Shown piece by piece: positions 2,439-13,617 of a stretch of 45,334 nucleotides of DNA; positions within the stretch are counted from its first letter, which is position 1; each line of letters starts with the position of its first letter. A program made the position numbers and the translations under genes. The DNA is from an uncultured Eubacteriaceae bacterium (lineage in GTDB: Bacteria > Bacillota > Clostridia > Eubacteriales > Eubacteriaceae). The stretch covers positions 1 to 45,334 of the forward strand of contig CALMRA010000044.1 of assembly GCA_937872065.1 (NCBI GenBank), written 5' to 3'. The notes beneath the pieces are model-generated. The model worked only from the letters and a program-made list of their open reading frames with translations. It was not told where the DNA came from and searched no databases.

Positions 2439-2474
2439 GCCGTCGTTTCTGAGATAGAAACGGCGGCTTTTTTC
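2439..2474 (+). terminator. Rho-independent terminator after the vWA gene
   Basis: A 12-bp stem (GCCGTCGTTTCT with AGAAACGGCGGC, one wobble pair) around a 5-base loop, followed by six T residues. It separates the HTH/vWA unit from the Rrf2 operon promoter just downstream. Confidence 0.9.
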
Positions 2475-2503: not shown

Positions 2504-2542
2504 TTGACATCCCGTATCCATAGATTTACTATATCCATAGAT
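2504..2542 (+). promoter_or_regulatory. Promoter of the Rrf2 operon with duplicated operator
   Basis: TTGACA at 2504-2509 and TACTAT at 2527-2532 are separated by exactly 17 bp. The 11-mer TATCCATAGAT occurs twice, at 2515-2525 in the spacer and at 2532-2542 starting on the last base of the -10. This 17-bp phased direct repeat straddling the promoter is well placed for autorepression by the Rrf2 protein encoded immediately downstream. The operator role is inferred. Confidence 0.7.
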
Positions 2543-2566
2543 ATAATATATCGAAAGGAAATGAAT

Positions 2567-3052
2567 ATGAAAGTTCATCAGAGCGTGGAGCAGGGAATCT
2601 ATGTCGTACTGATGCTCGCGCTTGAAAAGGATCATAAGCCGGTCAAAAGCAGCGTGCTCAGCAGGATTCTCGGAGTTTCGGACTCTTATTTAAAAAAGAT
2701 TCTGCGAAAAATGGTCATCGCGGGTATTATCACATCGAATGCCAGAAGAGACGGCGGTTTTCAGCTGGCCAGACCGGTGGAAGAGCTGACCATTAACGAC
2801 GTTTATCATGCGCTTGAAGGCGAGGGCAACGAAATGAAGCTTTCGGGACTCGCTCATCAGATTTTCGACGAAGATGAAAAGCTCGCGGAGGACGAAAAGA
2901 GGGTCGTTGAAATTTTCGACAAGGCGTTTGACGCTTTTGAAAATGAACTGAAAAAAATCAGCATATCGGATCTGCTTTTTAAAACAGATTATACGAACGG
3001 CAAAACACACTGGAGCGACCGGATTCTCGAATCAAAATCGCAGACAGCTTAA
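2567..3052 (+). CDS. Rrf2-family transcriptional regulator (cysteine-free)
   Basis: A 161-residue winged-helix regulator of the Rrf2 family: N-terminal helices, recognition region VSDSYLKKILRKMVIAGII, then the wing RRDGGFQLAR and the family phrase ELTINDVYHALEG. Many Rrf2 proteins (IscR, NsrR) hold an Fe-S cluster through three cysteines, but this protein has no cysteine at all, so it must sense something else. The ATG at 2567 is preferred over 2561 because the GAAAGGAA site ends right at 2560. It starts a run with degV and a patatin gene (15 and 18 bp gaps), so it probably controls lipid functions and itself. Confidence 0.9.
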   Translation: MKVHQSVEQGIYVVLMLALEKDHKPVKSSVLSRILGVSDSYLKKILRKMVIAGIITSNARRDGGFQLARPVEELTINDVYHALEGEGNEMKLSGLAHQIFDEDEKLAEDEKRVVEIFDKAFDAFENELKKISISDLLFKTDYTNGKTHWSDRILESKSQTA

Positions 3053-3067
3053 ACGGGAAGAGAATAT

Positions 3068-3985
3068 ATGAATAACTATCAGATTATTACGGACGCCACC
3101 TGCGACATGAATCAGGAGATTCTGGATCAGAAGGATATACTCGTCATGCCGATGGAAATTGTCATGGACGACGGACAGATCTTTCAGCATTACCCTGACT
3201 TCAGGAATTTTTCAGCGGATGACTTTTATGAAGAGCTGAAGAAGGGAAATCTGGCACATACCTCTCAGATCACGCCGGCGCAGTATCTGTCGTTCTTTAC
3301 TTCGATTCTCGAGGAAGGAAAGGATATCCTGTATGTCTGCTTTTCCAGCGGTATGAGCAATATGGCGGCGAACGCTAAGAATGCGGCGGCAGAGCTTGAA
3401 GAACGATATCCGGGAAGAAATGTCATCGCCGTGGATTCGCTGGGTGCCTGCGGCGGCGAAGGGGTTCTGGCTGTCAGAGCGGCGGAAAACCGTGAAAACG
3501 GCATGAGCATTCAGGAAAACGCAGAGTGGCTTGAGAACAACAAGCTTAATCTTGCTCATTATTTTTCAGTTGACGATCTGATGTATCTTCATAAGGGAGG
3601 ACGGGTGAGCGCCGCAACTGCGATTGTCGGTTCGGCCCTCGACGTCAAGCCGATGATGTACGTCGATGATGAAGGAAAGCTCCTTGTCAATTCTACGGTC
3701 AGAGGGCGGAAGGCTTCCCTGAAAAAACTGATTGCATTTACGCAGAAATCCATTATCGATTCTGAAAACCAGATATTATACATCTCCGGAGCTGAATGTC
3801 GCGAAGATGCGGAGTGGCTGCGAAAAAAAGTTCTTGAAAAGATCCCCTGCAAAGATGTTATCATTACTACTGTCGGTCCGGTTATCGGAACGCATACCGG
3901 TCCGTCGCTTATATGCCTGTTCTCATTCGGAACCGGCAGAAAACCGGTGTCTGATATCGCCGGTGTAATCAGACGCCTTCAGTAG
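3068..3985 (+). CDS. DegV family protein (FakB-type fatty-acid-binding subunit)
   Basis: A 305-residue DegV/FakB protein. Family members bind a fatty acid and present it to the kinase FakA, so exogenous or recycled fatty acids enter phospholipid synthesis. Visible family signatures are the N-terminal ITDATCDM, the TSQITPAQY segment near residue 62, the FSSGMSN loop near 96, the LHKGGRVS motif in the middle and the C-terminal IGTHTGP motif. The length is normal. It lies between the Rrf2 gene and a patatin-like lipase, which could supply its ligand. The partner kinase is not in the window. Confidence 0.93.
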   Translation: MNNYQIITDATCDMNQEILDQKDILVMPMEIVMDDGQIFQHYPDFRNFSADDFYEELKKGNLAHTSQITPAQYLSFFTSILEEGKDILYVCFSSGMSNMAANAKNAAAELEERYPGRNVIAVDSLGACGGEGVLAVRAAENRENGMSIQENAEWLENNKLNLAHYFSVDDLMYLHKGGRVSAATAIVGSALDVKPMMYVDDEGKLLVNSTVRGRKASLKKLIAFTQKSIIDSENQILYISGAECREDAEWLRKKVLEKIPCKDVIITTVGPVIGTHTGPSLICLFSFGTGRKPVSDIAGVIRRLQ

Positions 3986-4003
3986 AGAGGAAATGCAGGG
4001 TTA

Positions 4004-4900
4004 ATGAAAATATACAGCAATGCGGACAAGCTGCCGCAGGGAGAAGCGCCGAAGACGGTCACTGAAGGCTGTCTCGTACTCGAAGGCGGCGCATGGCGCG
4101 GGATCTACACTCAGGGAGCGCTGGACGCGCTGATGGAAGAAGGAATCAACTTTCAGACGGTGACGGGAATTTCTGCAGGAGCGATGTCCGGTCTCGGATA
4201 CGTTTCCGGTCAGATCGGATTTTCCGGCAGGATCAACCTGACTTATCGTCACGATAAAAATTACTGCGGTCTCGGCGCCTATACGAGAGACAGCGGGGTC
4301 ACAGGTTTTTCCTACTTCTTTAACCGGATTATGCCCGACAACCACTTCGATATCAGCCGGTTCGCAGATCCTCGACGCAGATTTGTCGTCGCAGCTACGA
4401 ACTGCCATACGGGAGAAGCGGCATATTTTGAAAAGGGCAGCTGTGATATTTTCAAAGCAGTACAGGCATCCGCGACCGTACCCTATGCGTCAAAGCCTGT
4501 CGATATAGACGGGACTCCATATCTGGACGGCGGATGCGCGACGAAAATTCCATACCAGTGGGCGAAAGACAGCGGCTTTTCAAAAATCTTCGTGATCCGG
4601 ACACGCGACCGTACGTTCCGCAAGGAAGAAAGCGATCATGACAGGCTCAATCATTTCTTTTACAGGAAATATCCGAAGCTTGAGGAAGCTCTGGCAGTCG
4701 GAAACAGCAGCTACAACAAGCTGCTGGGACAGATCGAAGACGACGAGCGAACCGGCAGGACCTTCGTTCTGGCGCCGAAGAAGCCGGTGGAGATAAGCCG
4801 GTTTGAGGGCGATATGGAAGCCCTGGGCGAGCTTTACTGGAACGGCTACAATGAAATGCACGAGCATATGGAGGAGCTGAAAGAGTATCTGGCGAGCTAA
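4004..4900 (+). CDS. Patatin-like phospholipase
   Basis: A 298-residue bacterial patatin-family lipid acyl hydrolase, cytoplasmic by sequence. The catalytic dyad is visible: Ser57 in GISAG (GXSXG) and Asp175 in the DGG motif; the oxyanion-hole glycines are in LEGGAWRG near residues 26-33. Such enzymes release fatty acids from membrane phospholipids. It is the last gene of the Rrf2-DegV unit, 18 bp after degV, and is followed by a terminator. Together with a FakB-type protein this suggests deacylation and recycling of membrane fatty acids; that link is inference. Confidence 0.92.
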   Translation: MKIYSNADKLPQGEAPKTVTEGCLVLEGGAWRGIYTQGALDALMEEGINFQTVTGISAGAMSGLGYVSGQIGFSGRINLTYRHDKNYCGLGAYTRDSGVTGFSYFFNRIMPDNHFDISRFADPRRRFVVAATNCHTGEAAYFEKGSCDIFKAVQASATVPYASKPVDIDGTPYLDGGCATKIPYQWAKDSGFSKIFVIRTRDRTFRKEESDHDRLNHFFYRKYPKLEEALAVGNSSYNKLLGQIEDDERTGRTFVLAPKKPVEISRFEGDMEALGELYWNGYNEMHEHMEELKEYLAS

Positions 4901-4954
4901 AACCGCGGTTATTCCATCGTTACAAATGTAAATAGACAGAAATAAAATCAAAAG

Positions 4955-5010
4955 AAGGAACTCATCAGGATGATCACCGTTCAGGAAAATCAGCTTTGAG
5001 TTCCTTTTTT
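4955..5010 (+). terminator. Terminator after the patatin gene
   Basis: A 10-bp perfect stem (AAGGAACTCA and TGAGTTCCTT) with a long 32-base loop runs into a T tract. It lies between the plus-strand lipid operon and the 3' end of the convergent thiamine operon. Confidence 0.75.
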
Positions 5011-5019
5011 ATTCTTACA

Positions 5020-5946
5020 TTATTCAAACATTGAGATCTGCTCGCGCCGGACGGACTTCATCAGCCGATCTGTGACGATCTCATCTCCCCGCGGATGTCC
5101 TGTGAGCATCGGAGAATTCGGATCGTGGGCACAGGCGCGGTTCATGACATTTTTCGGGCTGCCGGTCGCGTAGCAGTAGACGCAGCCGTGGGCGCAGGTG
5201 TCATAGGTTCCGATATCGACGCTTTCGATGCATCGGCAGGCGTCCCGCTGGTTCGGGTCCTTCTTCACGTCGACGGGACAGTCGATGATTTTTTCGATCA
5301 TCTCCCGTTCGATACATGCGCCGTGCGCGATTCCGTATTCGGACAGGTCGATCTTTTCAGCGCAGGTGTACAGAGGCAGTCCGTACCTGCCGGCCGTTTC
5401 CGAAAACGCAGCGGCGATCTGGTGGATCTCGCTATCAGTCATCGACCGGAAGCGCTTCCGGCTGTTCTGATAGATATCGATAAAGCTGATGATACAACGC
5501 CGGGTCTTTGCGTGGAGCGCTTCGCACATCCGTTCGAACTGTTCGATATGCCAGGAAACCGTATGGGTCTCGTCGATAAAGACCGGGTCGTATCGCCAGA
5601 TGACGCGCTCCGGTCCGATCCTGTCGGAAAGCTCGGAAAAGGTCCGGATCAGCTCATTCTGATCGGGAAGTCCGGGCTCGATATCCCGGCCATAGGGTGT
5701 GAGCGTGAACTGGAAGTAATAGGGGAAGCCGAATGCATCGAAACGGTCGAGCCTGTCCAGCATCGGAGCAGGATTTTTCGTCCAGAATACGAAGCAGTCT
5801 ACCGTTTCAGGAGAGAGCGCGACCCGGCTCAGCCGGTTCGGGTTTCGAGGATTCGGGATCAGTACAAAGCCTTCGTCGAGACGGTTCATCAGCCAGTCGG
5901 AGTACAGCGCCGGAATGTCCGTCCGTCTGCTGGCGCTGACGATCAT
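5020..5946 (-). CDS. DUF1848 family protein with radical-SAM-like Cys cluster
   Basis: A 308-residue protein of the uncharacterised DUF1848 family. Recognisable parts are the N-terminus VSASRRTDIPA, the FWTKNP motif near 54-59, the FTLTPYG strand near 80-86, and a cysteine-rich C-terminus with C237, C239 and C251-X3-C255-X2-C258 followed by Tyr-Ala. CX3CX2C is the spacing of the [4Fe-4S] site of radical SAM enzymes, although here it is C-terminal rather than N-terminal. The ATG overlaps the thiD stop (ATGA), so the gene is translationally coupled to the last thiamine gene and lies behind the TPP riboswitch. The reaction is unknown; a role in thiamine or pyrimidine salvage is inferred from context only. 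Confidence 0.88.
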   Translation of the reverse strand: MIVSASRRTDIPALYSDWLMNRLDEGFVLIPNPRNPNRLSRVALSPETVDCFVFWTKNPAPMLDRLDRFDAFGFPYYFQFTLTPYGRDIEPGLPDQNELIRTFSELSDRIGPERVIWRYDPVFIDETHTVSWHIEQFERMCEALHAKTRRCIISFIDIYQNSRKRFRSMTDSEIHQIAAAFSETAGRYGLPLYTCAEKIDLSEYGIAHGACIEREMIEKIIDCPVDVKKDPNQRDACRCIESVDIGTYDTCAHGCVYCYATGSPKNVMNRACAHDPNSPMLTGHPRGDEIVTDRLMKSVRREQISMFE

Positions 5947-6737
5947 CTCATCTGCCAGCAGTGGTCCATCGGACCGGAGCCGTGTCCGAGGTCGAGCATC
6001 GCGGACAGCGCGCCGTTCAGATAGGTTTTTGCCTGCGCGATGCTGTCTTCGAGGGAGAGTCCGTCCGCGAGACCGCAGGCGATGGCGGAGGACAGCGTGC
6101 AGCCGGTTCCGTGGGTGTTCGGGTTGTCGATCCGTTTCGAATGGAACCAGTGAGTGTTTCCGTTTTCGTACAGCAGATCCGTCGCGTCCTTGATGCGGTG
6201 CCCGCCCTTGACGAGAATCGCGCCGTCGTAACGCTCCGCGATCTTCTGCGCTCCCCGAATCATGTCGTCCGCGCTCCGAACGGGGAAGCCGCACAGAACT
6301 TCGGTTTCTGGAATGTTCGGGGTGATCAGAGCCGCGGCCGGAATGAGCCTGCCGATCACGGCTTCCTGTGCTTCTTCGGAGAGCAGCCGGCTTCCGCTGG
6401 TCGAAACCATGACGGGATCCACGACGATGTTACGGGCGCCGTATTCGGCGAGCGTATCGACGATGACGTCGATGATCCGGCTGCTTGAGACCATGCCGAT
6501 TTTCACGCTGTCGGGAACGATGTCCGTGAAGACCGCGTCCAGCTGGGCCGCGACGAAGTCCGGATCCGTTTCCGCGATACCGAAAACGCCGGTCGTGTTC
6601 TGCGCGGTAAGGGCGGTGATCACGCTCATCCCGTACATGCCGTGAGCCGCGATGGTCTTGAGATCCGCCTGAATGCCGGCGCCGCCGCTGCAGTCGGAGC
6701 CTGCGATGGTCAGTACTTTTTTCATCTTATTGTTCAT
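5943..6737 (-). CDS. thiD: Hydroxymethylpyrimidine (phosphomethylpyrimidine) kinase
   Basis: A ribokinase-family enzyme that phosphorylates HMP and then HMP-phosphate to HMP-PP, the pyrimidine half of thiamine. The 264 residues include the N-terminal substrate motif TIAGSDCSGGAGIQADLKT and the C-terminal ATP/anion-hole motif THGTGCTLSSAIA. Two starts are possible: 6737 (used here) or the Met four codons in, at 6725; neither has a clear Shine-Dalgarno sequence. It lies 51 bp after thiE and overlaps the DUF1848 gene by four bases. Part of the TPP-riboswitch-controlled salvage operon. Confidence 0.96.
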   Translation of the reverse strand: MNNKMKKVLTIAGSDCSGGAGIQADLKTIAAHGMYGMSVITALTAQNTTGVFGIAETDPDFVAAQLDAVFTDIVPDSVKIGMVSSSRIIDVIVDTLAEYGARNIVVDPVMVSTSGSRLLSEEAQEAVIGRLIPAAALITPNIPETEVLCGFPVRSADDMIRGAQKIAERYDGAILVKGGHRIKDATDLLYENGNTHWFHSKRIDNPNTHGTGCTLSSAIACGLADGLSLEDSIAQAKTYLNGALSAMLDLGHGSGPMDHCWQMR

Positions 6738-6788
6738 TTATTTGAATTTCTGTTTTTTCTTTTAGAGAGCGTGGAGCTGTCGAAACAG

Positions 6789-7478
6789 TCAGGCTTCGAT
6801 CATTTCTTCGGAGAGCCTGAGAAGATTCCGGCATTCCCGCGCGATATCGTCAGCCGCGAAAATCGCGGAGACCAGCGCCACACCCGCGACACCTGTTCCT
6901 GCAAGCTCCGGCAGGTTATCCCGGGTGATCCCGCCGATCGCGACAACGGGAATATCGACGGCGCTGCAGATCGCCAGGAGCATTTCACGGGAAACCTCGA
7001 CCGCATCGAGCTTCGTCGAGGTCGGGAAGACAGCGCCGACACCGAGATAATCTGCTCCTGCTGCCTGCGCTGCGAGAGCCTGCTGCACCGTCTGGGCGGA
7101 TACGCCGATAATCATGTCCTCGCCGACTGCCGTCCGGACGTCTCCGGCTTCCATATCCGACTGCCCGACGTGGATCCCGTCGGCCCTGCACTTGAGGGCG
7201 ATCTCTACGCTGTCGTTGACGATCAGGGGGACGTTAGATGCGCGGCATTTCTGTTTGAAGATCTCCGCTTCGGCAAGAAAATCCTCCGGATCCAGATCCT
7301 TTTCCCGGATCTGCAGACAGGTCGCGCCGCCGGCCAGCGCGTCGTCGACCTGTTCGGCCAGTGTTCTGCGGCCAGTCCAGGCCCGATCTGTCACGGCGTA
7401 CAGGCACATCGCCCGTCTGACAGCTTTCGGATCACGCATTGTTTTATTCGATTTCTGATTCTGATCAGCGGAGTTCAT
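6789..7478 (-). CDS. thiE: Thiamine-phosphate synthase
   Basis: Joins HMP-PP and THZ-phosphate to thiamine phosphate. The protein is 229 residues with a TIM-barrel ThiE signature: QIREKDL, VNDS, HVGQSD, GVSAQT, GVGAVFPTSTK and the late AIGGI phosphate-binding segment. The start at 7478 overlaps the end of thiM by 14 bp; a later Met (MRDPKAV) has no ribosome binding site. It receives its two substrates from the flanking ThiM and ThiD kinases. Confidence 0.96.
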   Translation of the reverse strand: MNSADQNQKSNKTMRDPKAVRRAMCLYAVTDRAWTGRRTLAEQVDDALAGGATCLQIREKDLDPEDFLAEAEIFKQKCRASNVPLIVNDSVEIALKCRADGIHVGQSDMEAGDVRTAVGEDMIIGVSAQTVQQALAAQAAGADYLGVGAVFPTSTKLDAVEVSREMLLAICSAVDIPVVAIGGITRDNLPELAGTGVAGVALVSAIFAADDIARECRNLLRLSEEMIEA

Positions 7479-8289
7479 ACTTCGCGCCTTTTTCGAGTTC
7501 TTCAGGAGTGAGATTGTAAACCGCGTCTATCAGATAATTTCTGAACGTAGAGTTACCGTCGAGTTCGCTCATCCGGCTTTCAGCTTTTTCGCCGCACAGC
7601 CCCATCGCGCAGACCGCCGCTGCAGCCGCTTCGAACAGATCGTCCTGATTTGCAGTCAGATAGGCGGTGGTCATCGAGGAGAGCATACAGCCGCTGCCGG
7701 TGATCGTGCTCATCATCGGGCAGCCGTTTGTGATGCAGACGGTCCGTGCGCCGTCCGAGATGATATCGGTCGCGCCGGTGATGACGACGACAGCTCCGGT
7801 GCGTTCTGCAAAATTACGGGCAAGGGCAGCCGCGGCGTCGAGGGTATCCGCGGTTACAGCATCGGCCGCATCCGCATCCACGCCCTTCGTCGTGCCGGAG
7901 CCTTCCGCCAGGGTCTTGATTTCGGAGATATTGCCCCGGATCACGTCGGGTTTCACTTCGTCGAGAAGTCCCAGCGCGGTTTCCGTCCGGTAGGCTGAAG
8001 CCCCCGCGCCTACAGGATCCAGCAGGACCGGATGGCCCAGCTCCTTCGCCTTGCGGCCGGCCGCGTACATTGACGGAATGGTCCGTTCGTTGAGGGTTCC
8101 GATGTTGATGTTGAGTCCGCCGCAGATCGCAGTGATATCCGCCGCTTCGTTCATATCGTCCGCCATGATCGGCGAGCCGCCGCAGGCCAGCAGGATGTTC
8201 GCGCAGTCGTTGACCGTCACATAGTTCGTGATGTTGTGGACCAGCGGTCCCGCCGCTCTGACGTTTTCCAGCCGTTTCTTTAAATTCAT
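7465..8289 (-). CDS. thiM: Hydroxyethylthiazole kinase
   Basis: Phosphorylates the thiazole alcohol (THZ) for thiamine salvage. The 274 residues carry the family motifs HNITNYVT, NINIGTL, LDPVGAGAS and the C-terminal ATP-site TGSGCMLSS. The start at 8289 is chosen because TGAGG lies seven bases upstream, formed by the end of thiN; an upstream in-frame ATG at 8301 lacks this. Because no thiazole or pyrimidine biosynthesis genes (thiC, thiG, thiH) are in the operon, this is a salvage-type locus. Confidence 0.96.
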   Translation of the reverse strand: MNLKKRLENVRAAGPLVHNITNYVTVNDCANILLACGGSPIMADDMNEAADITAICGGLNINIGTLNERTIPSMYAAGRKAKELGHPVLLDPVGAGASAYRTETALGLLDEVKPDVIRGNISEIKTLAEGSGTTKGVDADAADAVTADTLDAAAALARNFAERTGAVVVITGATDIISDGARTVCITNGCPMMSTITGSGCMLSSMTTAYLTANQDDLFEAAAAAVCAMGLCGEKAESRMSELDGNSTFRNYLIDAVYNLTPEELEKGAKYELR

Positions 8290-8297
8290 TGTTTTCC

Positions 8298-8921
8298 TCA
8301 TTCTTCACTTTTATTTGACATCAGGATCATCAGGATACCGCTTCCGACGCTGATCCTCGCTTCGTCGTCCCGCCATTCGTTGCTGACGCCCACAGGCCAG
8401 GTGTTTGTGACCGTCGCATCATCGAGCGGGTATTTCGCGCCGCCTATGTTCACACCGGTACAGCGGTCGGTCATTGCAAAGACAGACAGCGACCAGCCCT
8501 TCCGCTTCGGCAGGACCACCTCCTTGTCCGTCATGAACAGCATGTCCGAATTTTCATCAGCCATCCGGACAAACAGCCCTCGTTCCACCGCGTAGCAGGC
8601 GGACTGGATATTCGCGAAGGTATGATCCAGCCTGAGACCGAGGGCGCTGGTGATCTCGATTTCGTCAAAGCCGTGTTCCACCGCATAGCGGACGGCGATC
8701 ATCGTGTCGGTGTCGTCCTTTTCTTTCCGGTAACGCTGGATCGGGATATCGGGATCGACGGTTCCGTCGTAGGAATCGAAGTCGCCGACCGCTAGATCCG
8801 GCACGATTCCGTCCCGTTTCGCGTAGCCGCAGCCCTTATCACAGGCGATAACGAAATCCTCCGGTCCGATCTCAGGTGCGGGCGTATAGACGCCGCCCGA
8901 TATGATCACGCATTTTTTCAT
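8298..8921 (-). CDS. thiN: Thiamine diphosphokinase
   Basis: Converts thiamine to thiamine diphosphate with ATP. The 207 residues have the N-terminal ISGG motif, CDKG and VGDFDS in the N-terminal domain, the acidic run KEKDDTD that binds metal and ATP, and LRLDHTFANI in the centre. First gene of the thiamine operon, with a GGAG site directly downstream of the riboswitch terminator. Its stop lies just inside the thiM ribosome binding site region, so expression of the two is probably coupled. Confidence 0.95.
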   Translation of the reverse strand: MKKCVIISGGVYTPAPEIGPEDFVIACDKGCGYAKRDGIVPDLAVGDFDSYDGTVDPDIPIQRYRKEKDDTDTMIAVRYAVEHGFDEIEITSALGLRLDHTFANIQSACYAVERGLFVRMADENSDMLFMTDKEVVLPKRKGWSLSVFAMTDRCTGVNIGGAKYPLDDATVTNTWPVGVSNEWRDDEARISVGSGILMILMSNKSEE

Positions 8922-9192: not shown

Positions 9193-10518
9193 ATGGAACA
9201 GCAGACATTTTTTACAGCGCAGGATTCACAGCCGCTTGCGGCAAGACTGCGTCCTCAGACTCTCGAGGAGTTTGCGGGGCAGAAACAGCTTCTCGGAGAG
9301 GGAAAGGTTCTGAGGCGTCTCATTGAAAGTGACCGGATTTCGTCAATGATCTTCTGGGGACCTCCGGGTGTCGGGAAGACGACGCTGGCGAGGATTATCG
9401 CGAACAAGACCCAGGCGAACTTTATCGACTTCTCCGCGGTGAACAGCGGGATCCGTGAGATCCGCGAGGTTATGAAGAAGGCCGAGAAGAGCAGACTCTA
9501 CGGCGGCAAGACCATCGTCTTCGTCGACGAAATCCATCGTTTCAACAAAGCTCAGCAGGATGCGTTCCTGCCCTATGTTGAAAAGGGAAGCATTATCCTG
9601 ATCGGCGCGACCACTGAAAATCCGTCCTTTGAGATCAACGGGGCGCTGCTGTCCCGCTGCAAAGTCTTCGTACTCAAGGAGCTTTCGACAGACGAGCTTG
9701 TCGGACTGCTGGAACGGGCGGTGACCGATCCGAAAGGCTTCGGAGACGAAAAGATCGAGATCGAACCTGAGATGCTCGAGGTGATTGCGAACTTCGCCAA
9801 CGGAGACGCCCGTTCTGCGCTGTCAACTCTCGAGATGGTCGTACTCAACGGCGAGACCGACGGCGATACGATCCGGGTGACGAGCGAGACTCTCGAGCAG
9901 TGCGTCTCAAAGAAATCGCTGCTTTACGACAAGAAGGGCGAGGAGCATTATAATCTGATTTCCGCTCTTCACAAGTCGATGCGAAACTCCGATCCCGATG
10001 CGGCGGTATACTGGCTCGCCAGAATGCTGGAAGCCGGTGAGGATCCGCTGTACGTCGCCCGCCGGGTCGTCCGGTTTGCCAGCGAGGATATCGGGCTGGC
10101 AGATCCCAATGCGCTGGAGATCGCAGTCGCCGCGTATCAGGCCTGCCACTTTATCGGAATGCCCGAATGCACGGTCCACCTGACCCAGGCCGTCGTCTAT
10201 ATGTCCATGGCGCCGAAGTCCAACGCGCTGTACACGGCTTACGAAACCGCGAAGCGGGACGCGCTCACCCAGCTCGCGGAGCCCGTTCCCCTCGTCATCT
10301 GCAACGCGCCCACAAGTCTGATGAAGTCTCTGGAATACGGGAAGGGCTATCAGTACGCCCACGATTCGGAGGAAAAGCTCACCAATATGCAGTGTCTGCC
10401 GGACTCACTCGAAGGCAGGGAATACTACATTCCGACTGAACAGGGAAAAGAGGCGCGCTATAAAGCGCGCCTCGAACAGATCAAAGACTGGAAAATCAGG
10501 CGGAAACAGAAGAAGTAG
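9193..10518 (+). CDS. rarA: Replication-associated recombination protein A (AAA ATPase)
   Basis: A clamp-loader-like AAA+ ATPase (RarA/MgsA family) acting at stalled replication forks. The 441 residues have Walker A GPPGVGKT at 56-63, Walker B VFVDEIH at about 109-115, sensor 1 in GATTENPSF and the arginine-finger region LLSRC, followed by the C-terminal oligomerisation region. RBS AGGAGGGG lies just before the ATG and a TATAAT -10 at 9163-9168. The 3' end overlaps the convergent EIIC pseudogene by 23 bp. Confidence 0.96.
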   Translation: MEQQTFFTAQDSQPLAARLRPQTLEEFAGQKQLLGEGKVLRRLIESDRISSMIFWGPPGVGKTTLARIIANKTQANFIDFSAVNSGIREIREVMKKAEKSRLYGGKTIVFVDEIHRFNKAQQDAFLPYVEKGSIILIGATTENPSFEINGALLSRCKVFVLKELSTDELVGLLERAVTDPKGFGDEKIEIEPEMLEVIANFANGDARSALSTLEMVVLNGETDGDTIRVTSETLEQCVSKKSLLYDKKGEEHYNLISALHKSMRNSDPDAAVYWLARMLEAGEDPLYVARRVVRFASEDIGLADPNALEIAVAAYQACHFIGMPECTVHLTQAVVYMSMAPKSNALYTAYETAKRDALTQLAEPVPLVICNAPTSLMKSLEYGKGYQYAHDSEEKLTNMQCLPDSLEGREYYIPTEQGKEARYKARLEQIKDWKIRRKQKK

Positions 10519-11738
10519 CGGCGCCGGAGCCGGAAGCTTCGGCCGGAGCAGCGATCATCGCAGCCGGAGCCGAAACTTCTGCAGTGACTGCACCGGCGGC
10601 CTGATCTGAGGAAGCTCCCGAACTTTCTTCCACGACATCGACGTTTTTGCAGAGTACGAAGGTCACGACAGCGGATATGATAATCGCAACTGCGACAGCG
10701 ACGGCTGCGGCGATGATGGTTCCTTCGAAGATCGGCAGCGCCAGTACGGTGGAATAGCCCATGACGTAGGCACGGGCGCCCAGCAGGCCTGCGGTAACAC
10801 CGCCTGCAGCGCCGCCGGCCATTACGCCGATCATTGGTTTTTTAAGAGGCAGGTTGATGCCGTAAATGGCCGGTTCTGTTACGCCTGCCACGATGCATCC
10901 GAATGCGATGGACAGTGCTTCCGTACGGAATTCCACGTCTTTAGAACGAAGCGCTACGCCGATGCAGGCGCCGCCTTCAGCCATGTTGTGGAGCAGGAAT
11001 GCGGGACGGAATACAGCGTCATAGCCGGGATTGACGAGCGCCTGGGTCATGAACGGAACGAGGGCCATATGCATGCCGCACATAACGAGCCACGGCAGGC
11101 ATGCAGCCAGCAGACCGACTGCGATCGGCGCAACTCTGTCTCCGAGGAAGCCGAAGGCGATTGCGAGGTAGTTTCCGAGGTAGCCGCCCAGCGGTGCGAG
11201 AACAACATAACCTAAGATCATCGTGACGGTTACGGTACCGAGACCGACGAAGATGGATTTAAAGATGCCGGGAACGATTTTGTTGAAGAATTTTTCCATA
11301 TAATACGCGCACAGCGCCAGCAGGAGAGCAGGAAGCAGAGAACCGGAATAGCTCATCAGCCGGACCGGAAGTCCCAGAAGGGTGACCGCTTCGCCCGCCG
11401 CTACAAGCGCGGTGTAGTTCGCGTGCAGCAGGGATGCCGCGCAGATCATCGCGTAGATAGGTGTGGCGCCGAGCTTTTTCGCTGCTCCGTAAGCGACGTA
11501 GATGGGCATGAAGAAGAATGCCGTGTCGGCTACGCCGCTCAGCAGGGTATACGAGGTTGTATCGGCAAAATCTGCCCATACAAGGGTGATCAGCAGGAGT
11601 ACGACCTTGAGCATGCCGCCCGCAACCAGGCCGGGAATCATCGGCGTGACGGATGCGGATACGAAGCCGATGACGGCGGAGCCCGCGCTCTTGAAGGTCA
11701 GGGGAGTTCCTTTTTTTCGCGTCTATCTGTTTAGCCAT
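10496..11738 (-). pseudogene. PTS beta-glucoside-type EIIC, frameshifted in an A7 run
   Basis: Permease domain of a glucose/beta-glucoside-family PTS. The ATG at 11738 reads MAKQIDAKK and then leaves frame at a run of seven A (plus-strand T 11711-11717). With six A the frame continues directly into GTPLTFKSAG and the full EIIC sequence. Conserved EIIC regions are present: SGVADTAFFFMPI, GMHMALVPF, VTEPAIYGINLPL and a Gly-rich late helix. There is no EIIB domain before it and no EIIA after it; the C-terminus is instead a 45-residue Ala/Ser/Glu-rich tail. An ATG at 11641 could start a shortened protein lacking the first membrane helix. It lies 60 bp after the GH1 pseudogene. Confidence 0.85.

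Positions 11739-11797: not shown

Positions 11798-13617
<1,820 letters not shown>

Follow-up and report, generated by a model that had tools for sequence, protein, structure and literature searches.

What might an Rrf2 regulator sense, and which genes might it control, if it had no cysteine at all? Rrf2 regulators are mostly known as iron–sulfur (Fe–S) or thiol sensors, and the question is raised by a locus in an uncultured Eubacteriaceae bacterium, where the 45,334-nucleotide stretch of DNA analysed here (hereafter, the window) encodes a cysteine-free Rrf2 protein followed by a FakB-like DegV protein and a patatin-like lipase. All three genes lie on the forward strand: rrf2 (2567–3052, 161 aa), degV (3068–3985, 305 aa; PF02645, E = 1.4e-69; by sequence a FakB-like fatty-acid-binding protein) and the lipase gene, whose product has a C-terminal DUF6363 (4004–4900, 298 aa; PF01734, E = 1.6e-17; PF19890, E = 4.7e-18). 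Gaps of only 15 nt before the degV ATG at 3068 and 18 nt before the patatin ATG at 4004 bear out the original prediction that a FakB-like DegV and a patatin lie closely behind the regulator in a compact unit. The rrf2 start was placed at the ATG at 2567, which fits the MK start of the orthologues and the ribosome site; the TTG at 2504 was rejected as a start, being only the mechanical start of the open reading frame and part of a −35 hexamer. An intrinsic terminator with a 13-pair stem and a T run (2439–2467, forward strand), behind a VWA-like ORF that ends at 2363, isolates the unit from that ORF, and a terminator hairpin with a U run stands 3′ of the patatin gene (4951–5010, forward strand; −22.5 kcal/mol, z = −4.55, 0/200 shuffles). 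With terminators before the promoter and after patatin, the rrf2-degV-patatin unit is closed.

Two other parts of the window call for comment. A thiamine salvage run on the reverse strand (5943–8921) comprises thiD, thiE, a thiM-like kinase and thiamin pyrophosphokinase (thiM and the pyrophosphokinase named via Pfam, thiD and thiE by reading), and the beta-glucosidase and PTS transporter ORFs at 11874–13400 and 10496–11641, also on the reverse strand, appear on reading to be frameshifted or truncated at their ends, which could reflect assembly error or decay.

The regulator belongs to the Rrf2 family (PF02082, E = 7.6e-23, 81.5 bits against a cut-off of 30), and it also exceeds the TIGR00738 cut-off (77.1 versus 73.3 bits). 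Its 161 residues include no cysteine, as originally noted, and its scores fall far below the equivalog cut-offs of the Fe–S sensors RirA (43.6 versus 193), IscR (34.2 versus 207.55) and NsrR (28.4 versus 182). The further claim that it cannot bind a cluster in the usual way is thereby supported: the three cluster cysteines of the IscR, NsrR and RirA sensors are absent, and no column of an alignment of 37 orthologues (the window protein, six from genus g2, one from genome G219 and 29 from family f190) contains a conserved cysteine. Cysteines do occur in these orthologues (none in 17, one in 5, two in 14 and three in 1), at any one column in no more than nine sequences, and the single reactive cysteine of the SifR monothiol kind is likewise neither found in the window protein nor conserved among the 37. 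Among 25 other Rrf2 genes from the same family of genomes, a cysteine triad was detected by a loose pattern in about 15 and about 2 were cysteine-free, both counts being approximate since locus L023 was probably read in a frame other than that of Rrf2. Lack of cysteine as such is not new, because sections of PMC9218516 already note cysteine-less Rrf2 clusters in sequence networks. What is fixed in the alignment is a different set of residues: E8 and W149 are invariant (37/37), and Q9 and F100 are each present in 36 of the 37. Position 8 is a cluster ligand in characterized relatives (D8 in ScNsrR and E8 in RsrR, as given in the same sections of PMC9218516), and its invariance suggests that the old sensory site may still be in use without its metal–thiol ligands. 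A structure prediction of the window protein from its single sequence reached a pLDDT of 41, too low to be of use.

The promoter of rrf2 carries the second distinctive feature of the locus. A −35 hexamer, TTGACA (2504–2509), is followed after 17 nt by a −10 hexamer, TACTAT (2527–2532), both on the forward strand, and the −35 box has the same position relative to the downstream boxes in six orthologue promoters. The original prediction had described a duplicated 11-mer in this promoter; two exact forward-strand copies of TATCCATAGAT (2515–2525 and 2532–2542, 17 bp apart) are indeed present and occur nowhere else in the window, but the element is more aptly viewed as an inverted repeat of 23 bp, CCATAGAT-N7-ATCCATAG (2518–2540), of 8-7-8 design with six of eight arm positions symmetric. 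This putative operator (consensus YYRTRGAY-N7-RTCYAYRR) spans the −35/−10 spacer and the −10 box. Single 11-mers resembling TATCCATAGAT with up to two mismatches are no more frequent in the window than expected (12 found versus a mean of 11.0), and significance therefore lies in the spaced pair: the exact doublet TATCNATNGAT-N6-TATCNATNGAT occurs once in the 2.55-Mb genome. A search of this genome for further regulon sites gave one place at three mismatches (C191), which equals the level of a reversed-pattern control.

Conservation of the site, which the original prediction had proposed as a check, was found well beyond this genome. The same site precedes the rrf2 orthologue, or the gene heading its unit, in seven other genomes of the class. 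When these genomes and that of the window were searched for a −35 box followed by two boxes at spacings of 5 and 6 nt, exactly one match was obtained in each of seven of the eight, always before the Rrf2 orthologue; six of the seven are the genomes of genus g2, each with a close orthologue at 36–42% identity. Of the 22 box bases, 16–21 are identical to the window in the seven others, compared with 6.7 on average and 13 at most for 131 other promoter-like sites, while upstream of the −35 box the g2 flanks match the window at just 10–16 of 40 bases. The remaining genome, G219, has no match to the promoter–operator pattern at three mismatches; its variant, TTGATA-N5-TATCCACGGAT-N6-TAGCCACGGAT, precedes a flavodoxin-ferredoxin gene, with rrf2 next in line.

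A matrix built from these eight sites was then run on the upstream regions of orthologues from the distant family f190, in which all 29 genomes have one. The mean best score was 4.9 at a gap of 7, none of nine other gaps exceeded −2.5, and the best gap-7 dyad (for example, TTGTGGAT-AAAAAAA-GTCTATAA) lay on a promoter element in 27 of the 29 loci, including L139 with its start corrected. Individually, 17 of the 29 dyads reached P < 0.02 against mononucleotide shuffles. We caution against counting these 29 loci as independent because they come from one family; the independent fact is the cross-class match of the matrix at the same gap. As a control, a dyad score of 5 was reached at 2 of the 25 other Rrf2 loci. 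The dyad is not fully exclusive: in a sister group whose members bear cysteine, three of six loci (L047, L057 and L058) also scored above 5, and the DNA site may therefore predate the loss of cysteine. The sister genes at these three loci are divergent from a small pyridoxamine-oxidase-like gene (named by reading) and have a similar gap-7 dyad. A scan of the class for the doublet found it in 4 of 391 genomes, and in the three besides the window genome (L048–L050) it does not adjoin an Rrf2 gene.

The orthologues group together as one Rrf2 subfamily without a conserved cysteine, as judged from phylogeny and alignment. In a tree of 44 rows, for which 14 of the 29 f190 orthologues, 17 of the 25 further Rrf2 proteins and four of the six loci of the sister group were used, the window protein and all 21 other orthologues used fall on one side of a branch with support of 100/99, and the window lies inside an eight-row clade supported at 99/95; its nearest relative is the G219 protein, at 42% identity. 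The window protein thus has both marks by which the subfamily was delimited, a place in this one clade and a YYRTRGAY-N7-RTCYAYRR dyad before its gene or unit. The subfamily is sparse: hits came from 8 of the order’s 67 genomes at E = 1e-15 (including a weak sister-group member), from 6 of the 391 class genomes at 1e-17 (with three in the sister group) and from 5 of the 398 phylum genomes (with two in the sister group, L057 and L058). One other genome of the window’s own genus, 70% complete, had no orthologue at the set cut-off, and a scan of genome contigs with the window Rrf2 protein alone returned one distant Rrf2.

The cargo of the unit is plausibly a pair for acyl recycling. The window DegV scored 250.8 bits in the DegV domain test (cut-off 99.7) and 147.6 bits against the FakB1 equivalog, below its cut-off of 350. 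Like Staphylococcus aureus FakB1 (6alw, 5woo), it belongs to the DegV family and aligns equivalents of most of the carboxylate network and of R173 and R205 (T65, S97, R179, R212 and H276 correspond to FakB1 T62, S95, R173, R205 and H270), but FakB1 S171 is replaced by G177, leaving five of six ligand and FakA-contact residues in place. The two FakB arginines are described, in the parts available of PMC9136124 and PMC8892158, as conserved in all FakB proteins and required both in the kinase reaction and for binding to FakA and the membrane. A single FakA above the family cut-off is encoded in the same genome (655.8 versus 396.1 bits). The third protein has a patatin domain (PF01734, 64.8 bits) and a Ser–Asp dyad, and it matches PlpD; its GGxR, GISAG (S57) and DGG (D175) motifs, read from the sequence, are those usual in patatins. 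From the retained FakB residues, the presence of FakA and the patatin motifs, it is a sound deduction that the pair would release acyl chains and carry them to re-use. A search of one open library returned no literature on FakB together with patatin.

We consider it reasonably probable that the window encodes an autoregulated, Fe–S-independent Rrf2 repressor that is released by an inducer and controls rrf2-degV-patatin, the cargo of which recycles acyl chains. An Rrf2 dimer would bind the inverted repeat and fill the promoter from the −35 box to just past the −10 box; bound in this way, it would shut off the whole unit, its own gene included. That the site covers the −35/−10 spacer argues for repression, of rrf2 as well, although Rrf2 may instead act as an activator, or another factor may occupy the site. 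An inducer would then release the protein from the DNA through a site that now lacks cysteine, for which the invariant E8 and W149 and the near-invariant Q9 and F100 are candidates. The patatin would cleave fatty acids off lipid for the FakB-like DegV to carry to FakA, which would phosphorylate them for re-use.

How far the regulator and its cargo belong together can be judged from the neighbouring genes in relatives. Conservation of the rrf2-degV-patatin order, which the original prediction had named as a test, was not borne out: this gene order was found in none of the 66 other genomes of the taxonomic order, although 31 of them have a patatin homologue (E ≤ 1e-30) and 52 a DegV homologue (E ≤ 1e-35). 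Patatin and DegV homologues were never side by side in these genomes when coordinates were compared by eye (where a search had more matches than the loci it returned, the extra ones were judged by coordinates only), and when 48 other loci were searched by tblastn together with their 1.5-kb flanks, none contained another member of the trio. The lipid role therefore rests on the window genome alone. Elsewhere, the usual gene after the orthologue encodes a YhgE/Pip-type (ABC-2-type) membrane protein, in all six g2 genomes and at 27 of the 29 f190 loci (the name YhgE is by reading; the two neighbours scanned have an ABC2_membrane_3 domain), where the window has degV and patatin; L149 and L151, the two f190 loci without an adjacent YhgE gene, are also the two that lack the dyad. 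Across the genomes compared, the regulator and its operator are conserved and the lipid unit is not; most likely, the operator is ancient and the cargo changes between lineages. In genus g8, another Rrf2 gene stands about 100–150 bp behind a different DegV gene (L011:1456–2952, reverse strand; L014:297–1890, forward strand; and L023). These Rrf2 proteins are cysteine-free in L011 and L014, form a separate clade and have no such dyad, and the DegV proteins are 27–29% identical to that of the window; this is apparently a second Rrf2-DegV neighbourhood, independent of the one described here.

Cargo that varies by lineage, in an order seen in the window genome only, would also be expected if Rrf2 binds the operator while degV and patatin are passengers unlinked to its signal, brought in by chance fusion after a rearrangement. 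We regard this as unlikely because the 15- and 18-nt gaps, the flanking terminators and the single strand point to a settled unit, and because the functions of DegV and patatin suit one another. Another reading, which we also find improbable, is a redox or electrophile regulator of the SifR/HypR sort that has moved to non-thiol chemistry, with the acyl cargo serving a membrane-damage response: Gram-positive Rrf2 relatives sense quinones or HOCl (per portions of PMC9218516), and flavodoxin-type neighbours occur in G219, L061 and L151 (the last two by reading), the G219 rrf2 sharing a unit with a flavodoxin and 4Fe-4S ferredoxin gene that has the operator before it (L059:9499–10831, reverse strand), but the sensors of this sort described in those portions use cysteine, which is not conserved in the 37 sequences. 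That Rrf2 senses an acyl chain (as originally suggested), an acyl phosphate or a lysolipid in a feedback loop on membrane turnover is unlikely and has no direct support. In its favour are the FakB-like and patatin cargo here, the large ABC-2/YhgE membrane protein that most often adjoins the orthologues elsewhere, and the dispensability of cysteines in the orthologues; against it, the regulator’s own relatives are not beside lipid genes, the nearest (G219, 42%) has a flavodoxin-ferredoxin gene in its unit, and with such other neighbours the sensor has no tie to fatty acids.

Several known systems come close to the window protein, each with differences. CymR is an Rrf2 regulator not known to carry a cluster; it shares a Firmicutes origin with the window protein, which weakly matches 3t8r and 2y75, but the CymR equivalog score is 35.8 bits against a cut-off of 195. 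The SifR/YwnA monothiol repressors, too, are Rrf2 proteins with no cluster triad and a near-palindromic operator, but SifR relies on Cys102 and recognizes TGTAA-N9-TTACA, whereas the window protein is cysteine-free with a YYRTRGAY-N7-RTCYAYRR site (SifR/YwnA as presented in extracts of PMC9218516). With IscR, NsrR, RirA and RsrR it shares the DNA-binding domain and, with ScNsrR and RsrR in the same extracts, the acidic position 8, but no cluster cysteine and none of the IscR, NsrR or RirA scores above cut-off. Network clusters 5 and 20, which lack Cys and His, also have no conserved cysteine and keep their aromatics; these are mycobacterial and cyanobacterial proteins, likened to the window protein by their description in extracts of PMC9218516, which give no operator for them.

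A bolder proposal, which we offer as speculation and think rather unlikely, is that the subfamily exchanged metal–thiol sensing for the direct sensing of a lipid-derived ligand held at E8, Q9, F100 and W149, retaining an ancient operator across classes while its membrane-maintenance cargo varies, being an ABC-2-type membrane protein in most lineages and a FakB and patatin pair for acyl recycling here. A search of one open library, as far as its texts were accessible, returned nothing related that joins Rrf2 with YhgE, and the available part of PMC4999554 describes the YhgE/Pip N-terminal domain as without known function. The candidate operator also offers a handle on the control of YhgE/Pip proteins, and a coherent subfamily without a conserved cysteine, with a defined candidate operator and fixed candidate ligand residues, makes the identity of the inducer a tractable question.
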